Below are positions 56,361 through 61,225 of a DNA stretch of 64,000 nt, piece by piece. The DNA lies in contig NZ_MIJB01000024.1 in assembly GCF_002174305.1 (NCBI RefSeq), positions 1 through 64,000 of the forward strand, written 5' to 3'. The DNA is from Aeromicrobium sp. PE09-221 (GTDB lineage Bacteria; Actinomycetota; Actinomycetes; Propionibacteriales; Nocardioidaceae). The notes under the pieces are model-generated. The model was given only the letters and a program-made list of their open reading frames with translations, made no database searches and was not told the DNA's origin. The position numbers and the translations under genes are program-made. Positions within the stretch are counted from its first letter, which is position 1. Each line of letters starts with the position of its first letter.

Positions 56361-57827
56361 GTGACCGCATCCCCGCACCGCGACACCACCACCCTGCCCG
56401 CCAATCCCTGGCCGGCGCTGTGGGCCATGGTGATCGGCTTCTTCATGATCCTGGTCGACACCACGATCGTCTCGGTCGCGACCCCCGCCATCCGTGAGGC
56501 GCTGGAGACCGACTACAACACCGTCATCTGGGTCACGAGCGCCTATCTGCTGGCCTATGCCGTGCCTCTGCTCATCACCGGGCGGCTCGGCGATCGCATC
56601 GGACCGAAGAACGTGTATCTGGTGGGCTTGACGCTGTTCACGCTGGCATCACTGTGGTGCGCGGTCACCACGACGGTCGAGATGCTGATCATCGCGCGGG
56701 TCTTCCAGGGACTCGGCGCCTCGATGATGACCCCGCAGACCATGGCGGTCATCACCCGCACCTTCCCTCCCGAGAGTCGCGGGCGCGCGATGGCGCTGTG
56801 GGGTGCCACGGCAGGCGTCGCCACGCTGGTGGGTCCCGTGCTCGGCGGTGTCCTGGTCGACTCCGCGGGGTGGGAGTGGATCTTCTTCGTCAACGTGCCC
56901 GTGGGGATCATCGCCTTCGTACTGGCCTGGAGATTGGTGCCGCGGCTGGAGACCCATGCGCACTCCTTCGACTGGGTGGGCGTCGCACTCAGCGCCGCCG
57001 CGATGTTCCTCATCGTCTTCGGCATCCAGGAGGGTGAGCGCTATGACTGGGGACAGATCACCGGCATCGTCTCGGTACCCGCGCTCATCGGTCTCGGCCT
57101 GGTGGTCGGGGCGGTCTTCCTGTGGTGGCAGTCCCGGGTCCGTCGTGAGCCTCTCGTCCCGCTCCGACTGTTCCGCGAGCGCAGCTTCTCGGTCTCCACG
57201 GCGGCGATCTCGATGGTCTCCTTCTCGGTCACCGCGATGTCCTTCCCCTTCATGCTGTGGGCCCAGACGGCTCGTGGCTGGTCTCCGACCGAGTCGGGGA
57301 TGCTGTTGATCCCGATGGCCGTCGTCACGGCCGCGATGGCACCGATCGTCGGCCGCTGGACCGATCGCGTCGCACCGCGGCTGCTGGCCTCGATCGGTTT
57401 CGGCGTCTCCGGAGGATCGATCCTGTTCATGAGCCAGACGGTCGCCCAGGAGAGTCCCATCTGGCTGATCCTCATCGCCACCGCGCTCGTGGGCTTCGGC
57501 AATGCCTTCCTGTGGTCGCCGCTCGCGGCGACGGCCACGCGTCGTCTGCCGATGTCGTCCGCGGGGGCTGGCTCGGGGGTCTACAACGCGACCCGGCAGA
57601 TCGGCGCGGTGCTCGGCAGCGCGGCGATCGCCGCGGCGATCTCCAGCCGGCTGGCGGCCCACCTCCCGCAGGCGGCCGAAGCGGGTGCCGAGGGCGCGGG
57701 TCCCACGGTCCTGCCCCCCGAGGCGGTCGAGCCCTTCTCGACGGCCATGAGCCAGGCGCTCCTCGTCCCCGCCGCCGCCTTCCTCCTCGGCCTCCTGATC
57801 GTCCAGCTCTTCCCCCGCCCCCGCTGA
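56361..57827 (+). CDS. MFS drug/metabolite exporter, DHA2 (14-segment) family
   Basis: 488 residues with about 14 membrane segments, as in EmrB/QacA-type proton antiporters. The N-terminus contains FFMILVDTTIVSVATPAIRE, motif A GRLGDRIGPKNVYLVGL, and motif C-like GATAGVATLVGPVLGGVLVD. Exported compound unknown. GTG start. The stop lies two bases from a 39-bp repeat that marks the boundary with the DUF559 gene. Confidence 0.92.
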   Translation: MTASPHRDTTTLPANPWPALWAMVIGFFMILVDTTIVSVATPAIREALETDYNTVIWVTSAYLLAYAVPLLITGRLGDRIGPKNVYLVGLTLFTLASLWCAVTTTVEMLIIARVFQGLGASMMTPQTMAVITRTFPPESRGRAMALWGATAGVATLVGPVLGGVLVDSAGWEWIFFVNVPVGIIAFVLAWRLVPRLETHAHSFDWVGVALSAAAMFLIVFGIQEGERYDWGQITGIVSVPALIGLGLVVGAVFLWWQSRVRREPLVPLRLFRERSFSVSTAAISMVSFSVTAMSFPFMLWAQTARGWSPTESGMLLIPMAVVTAAMAPIVGRWTDRVAPRLLASIGFGVSGGSILFMSQTVAQESPIWLILIATALVGFGNAFLWSPLAATATRRLPMSSAGAGSGVYNATRQIGAVLGSAAIAAAISSRLAAHLPQAAEAGAEGAGPTVLPPEAVEPFSTAMSQALLVPAAAFLLGLLIVQLFPRPR

Positions 57828-57828
57828 C

Positions 57829-57867
57829 CCGACCCTCCGGGTCCAGCTTTTGCCGGGTTGTGGCCCT
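57829..57867. repeat. Repeat family E, left copy bordering the DUF559 gene
   Basis: A 39-bp block that matches the right copy at 58953-58991 in inverted orientation with four or five mismatches. It starts CCGACCCTCCGGGTCCA and ends TGCCGGGTTGTGGCCCT. It lies 2 bp after the MFS stop and touches the DUF559 stop codon. Confidence 0.85.
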
Positions 57868-58823
57868 CAGGCGGCCGCTCGAGGGGCCATTGCCCGGCGA
57901 AAGTTGCTCGCGGCGAACCAGCGTTCCCACATCACGGACGTCACCGGTGCGGGGCCAAGGTAACCCTGCTCGCGGAGTGCGTGGAAGATCCGCCAGGGGA
58001 TCTTCCGGGGGTCCGACAGATCGGTGTCGTAAATGACGATAACCGTCCAGCCCAGACGTTCGAGGCACTCGCGTCGATCACGATCCCGCTCACGTTGTCG
58101 AGCCGAACGTTCGTGCCAGTAACCGTCGTACTCGACCGCGACCTGCCAGCGCACATAGGCCATATCCACCCGTGCGATGAAATGCCCGTCGCCATCGAGG
58201 ACCCGGACCTGGAGCTCGGGTTCCGGAAATCGTGCCGTCACGAGGAGCAGCCGCACCCACGATTCTCGTGGAGATTCCGCCCCCTCGCGGACCCACCTCA
58301 AGGCCCGGCGAGCTCGACGCACACCGCTGAGATGCCGATCATCGGCGTACTCGACCAGCCGCTGGAGCGTGGTGAACCTCTGCGTGATCAACCAGTCCCC
58401 CGTGACCACGAGCCAGGGCCAACTGAGTTTGGTGGCGAGGTCGACGAAGGTGCGCTCCGGACTCGTCACAGGCAGGCCGTGTCGCTCACGGCTCGCGATC
58501 GAGCCTTGGCGGCGGTGACTGGCGATCCGAGCTTGCTCGCTGTCCCAATTCGTGCGTGTCGAGACATGGATCCTGCCGTCCGAGGGCACATCGAGCCCCC
58601 AGAGAGCGAGCGCCGTGTAGTGGGAGATCACGGCACCTCGTGGCGCTGCCAACAAGGCGGCACGTGCCCAGACCACGACGGTGAGGACGAGATCAGCGTT
58701 GACATAGACCCCTCGCAGCAGCCGGCGCCATCGAACCGATCTCAACTGCTTGGGCGTGAGCCCGGCTGCAAGTGCCTCCGCACGGGTGAAGGGACGGTCG
58801 GCCACATCAGCAGGAAGCTTCAT
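57867..58823 (-). CDS. DUF559 nuclease-like protein with N-terminal AbiEi-like domain
   Basis: 318 residues. The N-terminal part (about 10-45, FTRAEALAAGLTPKQLRSVR and LLRGVYV) resembles the AbiEi-type winged-helix antitoxin domain. The C-terminal part has the restriction-endonuclease-like DUF559 pattern: VAVEYDGYWH near residue 222, then RDRDRRECLERLGWTVIVIY. Asp and Glu there would form the metal site. Proteins of this layout are multi-copy in actinobacteria and of unknown function. ATG 58823 is the first start with homology; upstream codons lie between the repeats. The gene is bounded on both sides by 39-bp inverted repeats, suggesting a mobile or recently inserted unit. Confidence 0.85.
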   Translation of the reverse strand: MKLPADVADRPFTRAEALAAGLTPKQLRSVRWRRLLRGVYVNADLVLTVVVWARAALLAAPRGAVISHYTALALWGLDVPSDGRIHVSTRTNWDSEQARIASHRRQGSIASRERHGLPVTSPERTFVDLATKLSWPWLVVTGDWLITQRFTTLQRLVEYADDRHLSGVRRARRALRWVREGAESPRESWVRLLLVTARFPEPELQVRVLDGDGHFIARVDMAYVRWQVAVEYDGYWHERSARQRERDRDRRECLERLGWTVIVIYDTDLSDPRKIPWRIFHALREQGYLGPAPVTSVMWERWFAASNFRRAMAPRAAA

Positions 58824-58920
58824 TCTCAGAGCGTCATCCCGGGCCGAGGGATCGACCAGACCTCGCGGAACGATTGTGGATGTCCGGATCGTGGTCTCAA
58901 CTCTGTGGACAACAAATAAA

Positions 58921-58991
58921 TGCCGGGTTCTGGCCCTCTCCGATGCTCGGAAAGGGCCAGAACCCGGCAAATCTTGGACCCGGAGGGTCGG
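58921..58991. repeat. Repeat family E, right copies bordering the DUF559 gene
   Basis: TGCCGGGTTCTGGCCCT at 58921-58937 (plus) and its perfect inverse at 58953-58969 form a 17-bp stem with a 15-nt loop. The inverse copy extends to 58991, completing a 39-bp match to the left border at 57829-57867. It lies 9 bp past the icd stop on the minus strand, so it may also serve as the icd terminator. Confidence 0.87.
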
Positions 58992-58999
58992 ACCGGGGG

Positions 59000-61225
<2,226 letters not shown>

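Follow-up and report, generated by a model that had tools for sequence, protein, structure and literature searches.

A DUF559 nuclease-like gene and its flanking palindromes are a co-varying pair in Aeromicrobium and beyond

Among described systems, the closest to the locus reported here are the REP/RAYT (TnpA-REP) elements and REPINs. The passages cited portray these as dispersed extragenic palindromes with a GTAG or CGTC end, in families that vary by lineage and that flank the gene of their own enzyme, an HUH tyrosine transposase (PMC3116915, PMC3733652). A second point of comparison is the EDxHD homing endonuclease I-Bth0305I, whose target, according to the cited part of its description, measures nearly 60 bp and is held by a dimer (PMC3943268). 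In homing systems of this type the gene interrupts the target, and in AbiE, a type IV toxin-antitoxin system, the antitoxin AbiEi is found adjacent to the nucleotidyltransferase toxin AbiEii. AbiEi binds inverted repeats. Within the cited parts of earlier work, five AbiEi-domain genes were counted in a Rhodococcus (PMC12915292), the MTES_1575 Vsr-type REase domain was described within a large multi-domain protein (PMC3710099), and the words nuclease and transposase are absent from a stem-loop survey that included actinobacteria (PMC2267715). Our search of an open library of papers, with subscription papers and preprints outside its scope, found no paper joining DUF559, MTES_1575 or Vsr to extragenic palindromes.

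The locus lies in a window of 64,000 nucleotides (the whole stretch of DNA that was analysed) from Aeromicrobium sp. PE09-221, whose 4.0-Mb genome we call G000. There, a DUF559/MTES_1575 gene stands between two palindromes and is neighboured by an MFS transporter gene and icd, both named as in an earlier sequence-only reading of the same DNA. The features are as follows.

56361 to 57827, plus strand: MFS transporter gene, convergent neighbour
57831 to 57844: outer extension GACCCTCCGGGTCC on the MFS side, complementary to 58976-58989 across the gene
57851 to 57899: 3' palindrome, with arms 57851-57867 and 57883-57899 (the second worn) and a 15-nt spacer, 57868-57882
57867 to 58823, minus strand: DUF559/MTES_1575 gene, 318 aa, with a predicted AbiEi-like domain (about residues 1-179) and a predicted Vsr/homing-type nuclease domain (about 184-288)
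58875 to 58883, minus strand: second leader box ACATCCACA, about 60 nt before the start codon
58904 to 58912, minus strand: leader box TTGTCCACA, DnaA-box-like, 89 nt before the start codon
58921 to 58969: 5' palindrome, with arms 58921-58937 and 58953-58969 and a 15-nt spacer
58976 to 58989: outer extension GGACCCGGAGGGTC on the icd side
59000 to 61216, minus strand: icd gene, same-direction neighbour

The sequence-only reading had placed the gene and the MFS and icd stops (57827 and 59000) where we find them, and the 39-nt inverted pair that it reported (57829-57867 and 58953-58991) is real and 90% complementary. As a description of the repeats, however, the pair is incomplete, being the outer arms of two palindromes plus the common extension GACCCTCCGGGTCC, and what had been taken at 58921 for a third, partial copy is present as a full palindrome, 58921-58969. 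In both palindromes the arms are 17 nt long and follow TGCCGGGTTNTGGCCCT, although the 3' palindrome has a worn inner arm. The left repeat does meet the DUF559 stop codon, as had been noticed: the codon (57867-57869) falls within a palindrome arm because the left palindrome extends into the coding end of the gene, where it also overlaps the last codons. In A. piscarium (genome G016), which has an 82% identical gene at the same position, the 3' palindrome is arranged as in the window (L036/L052). The last protein residues are encoded by the 3' palindrome both in the window (57867-57899) and in L052. The 5' palindrome folds strongly as DNA (z = -9.2); the imperfect left (3') palindrome, as a single strand, is only moderately more stable than its shuffles (z = -2.3, with 3 of 200 shuffles equalling it).

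We compared a predicted model of the protein (mean pLDDT 86) with known structures. In this model, residues 1-179 match the AbiEi antitoxin 6y8q (Z 12.1, rmsd 4.8, 173 residues aligned), and residues 184-288 match the catalytic domain of I-Bth0305I, 3r3p (Z 11.6, rmsd 2.4, 96 residues aligned), the next matches to the C-terminal fold being NGO0050 (Z 10.3) and Vsr 1cw0 (Z 9.4). These fold matches therefore point to a DNA-binding fold joined to a nuclease type that elsewhere drives gene copying. Pfam PF18741 (MTES_1575) matches with an E of 1e-7, under its curated cut-off. An HUH Y1 tyrosine transposase was not among the Pfam, NCBIfam and fold matches, which are to AbiEi and to Vsr/homing nucleases. 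In 71 genus homologs, among the matches listed, S184, E187, R191 and D220 are invariant and E231, G234 and H237 are conserved at 0.99, suggesting that these residues are catalytic.

Compared with the EDxHD homing type, whose I-Bth0305I gives, together with Vsr, the best fold match to the predicted C-terminal domain, the locus has no intron or intein and the protein has an AbiEi-like half that would bind DNA. The target of I-Bth0305I, as given in the cited part of its description, is of about the same size as window-type palindromes with their tips (PMC3943268). The gene described here encodes some 300 aa and is flanked by palindromes, unlike the large multi-domain protein of the cited part of PMC3710099. 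Among PADLOC profiles, that of AbiEi matches at E 8e-15 and that of Hhe, in its nuclease end, at E 6e-6, and these matches favour a role in defence or self-recognition, in which the nuclease attacks DNA that lacks, or carries, the palindromes or cruciforms of its genome. Yet where AbiE has its toxin adjacent, the neighbours in the window are MFS and icd, with no toxin, methylase or helicase, and the AbiEi-like part is fused to a nuclease. Defence also gives by itself no account of flanking palindromes that change with the gene, and we consider it highly improbable.

Gene and palindrome are paired across the genus. We counted a gene as paired if its 5' and 3' flanks share a repeat with a score of at least 17. 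Such a matched flank repeat occurs in 59 of 72 genus homologs, which are part of the matches listed when 49 genomes were searched; among 1000 mismatched flank pairs, 12 have one. The 59 is slightly low because the gene end was placed too far downstream in L056 and L071. The other 13 of the 72 (again among the matches listed) fall below the threshold. In the same set of fetched loci, 7 of 10 DUF559-like ORFs have a matched flank repeat and 0 of 115 other complete genes do. These 115 control ORFs, complete and at least 120 aa long, come from palindrome-centred, icd and PLDc_N loci and were taken by locus, whether or not they touch a palindrome; the comparison rules out matched flanks as a general trait of genes near palindromes. 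Genus-wide, the 5' palindrome occupies about -150 to -90 relative to the start codon, and the 3' palindrome is located around the stop. A four-arm score yielded these positions, which we kept, but it was dropped as a statistic because it separated real from shuffled flanks poorly (minimum arm score 8 in 66 of 72 real and 72 of 141 shuffled flanks). The 5' and 3' palindromes have equal arm spacing in 47 of 52 genes, a figure that has no fair between-gene baseline and is given no weight.

The sequence of the repeat varies from gene to gene, even at one site: the 60% identical gene that G001 carries between icd and MFS is flanked on either side by an entirely different palindrome. The sequence-only reading had considered that paralogs elsewhere might lack the repeats. 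Paralogs do lack TGCCGGGTTCTGGCCCT, but two of the four other G000 matches have palindromes of their own, L032 at both sides and L034 downstream, with one arm upstream at a contig end (score 22, over about 115 nt of upstream flank). The remaining two are fragmentary and were excluded from the 72; L035 has a flank score of 25, and L033, which scores 11, shows no palindrome. The enzyme and its palindrome seem to evolve jointly. The protein-palindrome correlation over non-syntenic gene pairs is weak (Spearman 0.08, p = 0.027), and a value of 0.29 was rejected as inflated by adjoining coding sequence in the arm-similarity measure.

Pairing is also found outside the genus. Homologs at E <= 1e-12 occur in 39 of 246 sampled genomes of the phylum, two of them in this genus. 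Of 28 loci outside the genus, one had no tblastn match and 27 were scored, counting shared repeats whether palindromic or otherwise; the flanks match in 14 of the 27 and in 1 of 304 control pairs, and about half of the distant homologs show no flank match. Among 11 related loci in named genomes (L036 included), 4 pass, or 6 if cruder gene ends are used. Two genomes of one other actinomycete genus have nine scored copies each, and 11 of these 18 pass against 0 of 306 cross pairs; the repeats therefore differ between paralogs in those two genomes.

The palindromes are also dispersed in the genome, in a REP-like manner. Arm matches with at most 2 mismatches number 38 in G000, against 4 for a reversed-pattern control, and 46 in A. 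piscarium G016, against 2. The 38 arms of G000 make up 16 two-armed palindromes, 2 more with a worn second arm, and 4 single arms, and the 18 palindromes are mostly remote from the DUF559 gene and mostly behind stop codons. The 32 two-armed copies of G000 and G016 share the arms TGCCGGGTTNTGGCCCT, mostly with ACTTTTG-like tips, and their spacer is 14-16 nt long in 32 of 32 and exactly 15 nt in 26. Arm identity across the 32 is 0.89, the arms having been picked by similarity and spacing not having been a selection criterion; among the 26 copies with a 15-nt spacer, spacer identity is 0.30, near chance. Chance repeats are ruled out by the shuffled and reversed-pattern controls. Two matches to the palindrome pattern were seen in viral contigs, where no relative was found.

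By mechanical ORF calls, 30 of 31 classified copies lie outside ORFs, 20 of them between convergent and 10 between tandem ORFs; 1 lies in an ORF. None of the 31 is placed between divergent ORFs, and operator or regulon sites are accordingly unlikely. This distribution, with the strong fold of the 5' palindrome, favours host-serving bidirectional terminators or mRNA stabilisers behind stops, the protein being merely a DNA-binding factor that regulates itself and is often located among palindromes. Ordinary terminators, however, need no common sequence, yet the arms are common within a genome and different between genomes; moreover, the flank match is tied to DUF559 genes and absent from the control genes, and the candidate catalytic residues are invariant. 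We regard this explanation as quite unlikely.

The full window pattern occurs 9 times in G000, 8 times in G016, both of which carry the gene, and 0 times in the other 47 of 49 genus genomes. The family of the L053 gene has 8 arms in G001, 7 in G015, one each in 8 other genomes and 0 in 39, and that of the L109 gene has 20 arms in G018, 3 in G037, 1 in G030 and 0 in 46 (control, 2 overall). Each of the three families traced thus has several copies in its own genomes and few or none in the other genus genomes. For the L067 family, an over-strict full pattern matched only two copies, those at the gene. G015 has retained L053-type palindromes, yet its best homolog, among the matches listed, reaches only E 4e-26.

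Taken with the pairing, the dispersal and the predicted folds, these patterns make it reasonably probable, in our judgement, that the DUF559 protein is a dedicated sequence-specific nuclease of lineage-specific palindromes whose cutting spreads and homogenises its targets. The target would be a lineage-specific family of 50-60-bp palindromes. The AbiEi-like N-terminal half would read the two arms, probably as a dimer, to judge by its fold and the fixed arm spacing, and the Vsr/homing-type C-terminal half would cut in the spacer. Repair of the cuts could then copy palindrome sequence from site to site, which would keep the palindromes of one genome alike while genomes and paralogs diverge, and would open the stretch immediately after stop codons to colonisation by palindromes; the gene would be placed between two copies of its own target. 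Such a nuclease would supply a testable function for a multi-copy actinobacterial family that so far has only the labels DUF559 and AbiEi-like. It would also be a candidate enzyme behind dispersed palindromes of otherwise open origin, and the many natural enzyme-palindrome pairs, with their differing sequences, would be a ready-made specificity table for a long-target nuclease.

Several points speak against a palindrome-specific nuclease of this kind, among them the genes of the genus and the distant homologs without a flank match, the weak protein-palindrome correlation and the L053-type palindromes of G015. A self-cutting enzyme between two targets would need restraint, and the gene seldom changes place: 13 sites shared within the genus account for 52 of the 58 genes tested. 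The sequence-only reading had seen here a candidate mobile or selfish unit. This is partly borne out: gene and palindrome family do go together, but, to judge by the shared sites, the unit does not hop freely.

Between sister species, the palindromes themselves are gained and lost at junctions that are conserved. We looked in G000 for four G016 palindromes that none of the fetched G000 palindromes matches, and all four are missing in G000 between conserved flanks, although a worn half arm may remain at the L303 site and some intergenic bases are missing too at the L302 site. Nine G000 palindromes were checked in G016. The same family is present at two of the sites (L018/L263 and L013/L261), a related second family, about TGGCC[AG]GTTGTGGCCCGTT, is found at six, and the ninth (L020) has no clear G016 counterpart. 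None of the four G016 genes in the matches listed is a partner to this second A. piscarium family. A strict one-to-one pairing is therefore disfavoured, unless its partner was lost or the enzyme reads both families. Two of the six sites are clear doublets 75-80 nt apart (L296, L298), a likeness to REPINs, and L301 is perhaps another. Read by eye, these REPIN-like doublets have a common inner GAGACGATCTC-like motif.

Genes of other kinds were also seen between palindromes. One that has the appearance of a GNAT acetyltransferase gene (L051, G000 C106:202452-203725) is enclosed by two palindromes that belong to the window family or are close to it. Another, of EamA-transporter appearance (L261, G016 C16), lies between two palindromes of different families and is missing at the matching G000 junction (L013, C51).

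The analogy to RAYT/REP drawn in the sequence-only reading holds as a logic, in that gene and palindrome family go together in the genus and beyond and that sister species differ in palindrome presence. The repeats do occur mostly without DUF559 genes, a possibility raised in the same reading, and we judge that neither this nor the lack of TGCCGGGTTCTGGCCCT in paralogs refutes the analogy. Set against the cited descriptions of REP/RAYT, the enzyme here is AbiEi-like plus Vsr/homing nuclease by its predicted fold, and the window family lacks a GTAG or CGTC end and has 17-bp arms with a fixed 15-bp spacer (PMC3116915, PMC3733652).

We examined the icd end in 30 of the 46 genomes with a match there. 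The gene is present only in G000, G016 and G001; it is not syntenic in all relatives, but found at the icd site in 3 of the 30. G015 has a lone palindrome of the G001 family at this site, G018 has one of its own L109 family, and G011, G030, G031, G040 and G042 have other palindromes, while the stretch inspected in the remaining 20 genomes contains ordinary short hairpins or none. The G015 site is not cleanly empty, with about 380 bp of other sequence in the gene's place. At a second junction, whose neighbour we take to be a PLDc_N-like gene, 7 of 30 genomes have the unit, and no homolog was found within 1.5 kb in the other 23. Where it is absent, the stops may be one base apart (L323), or there may be half a palindrome (G000, L329), a palindrome on its own (L322) or two palindromes but no gene (L332). 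The unit in L335 (G020) is reversed relative to L306-L309, L327 and L333, which recombination between the flanking palindromes could cause. Alignments of empty sites showed no clear target-site duplication of the kind that an insertion sequence with terminal inverted repeats would leave, the junctions being diverged, and no fresh gene insertion was caught among the genes tested.

If the unit had entered one palindrome, its outermost arms would be expected to be the halves of one older, longer palindrome. Over the 10 nt past the core, the outermost arms are 0.60 identical; the three remaining 5'-3' pairings of arms give 0.42, 0.46 and 0.40 (p = 0.0006, 0.007 and 0.002, over 19 site clusters), and extension identity between genes is 0.34. 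These 5'-3' pairings were used in place of arms of the same palindrome because the core was taken from the best 5'-3' match, which biases the latter comparison. The result suggests that the unit once inserted into the spacer of a single palindrome; the similarity could also stem from stop-codon neighbourhoods that are alike for other reasons.

Such an origin would fit a classical free-standing homing gene, a selfish gene that cuts solo palindromes and is copied into them, the dispersed palindromes being vacated or unoccupied sites. The longer similarity of the outermost arms fits this, as do I-Bth0305I as nearest nuclease fold and the PLDc_N-like junction, where some of the 23 genomes without the unit keep a palindrome or half of one. 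Homing insertion normally destroys its target by interrupting it, yet here both flanking targets exist and keep two arms, and the genes are few and site-stable whereas the palindromes are many. For these reasons we think a homing gene of this sort unlikely. Gene and palindromes are a co-varying pair, REP/RAYT-like without the defining transposase or end motif and homing-like without target destruction.

The stretch between the 5' palindrome and the start codon holds a further conserved element. A box with at most 2 mismatches from TTGTCCACA, which we take to resemble the actinobacterial DnaA box, is present there on the coding strand in 62 of 71 genus genes (among the matches listed). The search spanned 130 nt, and as controls eight permuted motifs gave 2-9, the reversed motif 10 and the reverse complement 19. 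Box positions cluster at -60/-61 and at -88 to -91, and in 24 of the 26 genes having a pair the boxes are 28-30 nt apart; outside the genus, the box is found in 25 of 56. Because the box is constant between genes, unlike the palindromes, it likely serves a host factor, and expression of the DUF559 gene might, as a guess, be tied to replication.

A palindrome-specific nuclease with such a leader leads us to a broader proposal, which we hold tentatively and with somewhat less than even confidence: a phylum-wide class of AbiEi-Vsr fusion nucleases, not transposases, that would keep palindromes by placing, spreading and continually rewriting their own 50-60-bp targets behind stops, with cutting perhaps timed to replication through the two DnaA-box-like leader motifs. 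Today this class is matched only by AbiEi, DUF559 and MTES_1575 profiles. If the proposal is true, palindrome-keeping nucleases would add to homing and the RAYT transposases a third way for a gene and short DNA repeats to co-persist in bacterial chromosomes.

Palindrome ends show some regularities of their own. In the other actinomycete genus with nine scored copies per genome (L336-L352), many palindromes begin CGCCGAG or CGAG. Within Aeromicrobium, different palindrome families often have alike tips (ATTTG, ATGTG or CTTTTG), recalling the fixed end of REPs.
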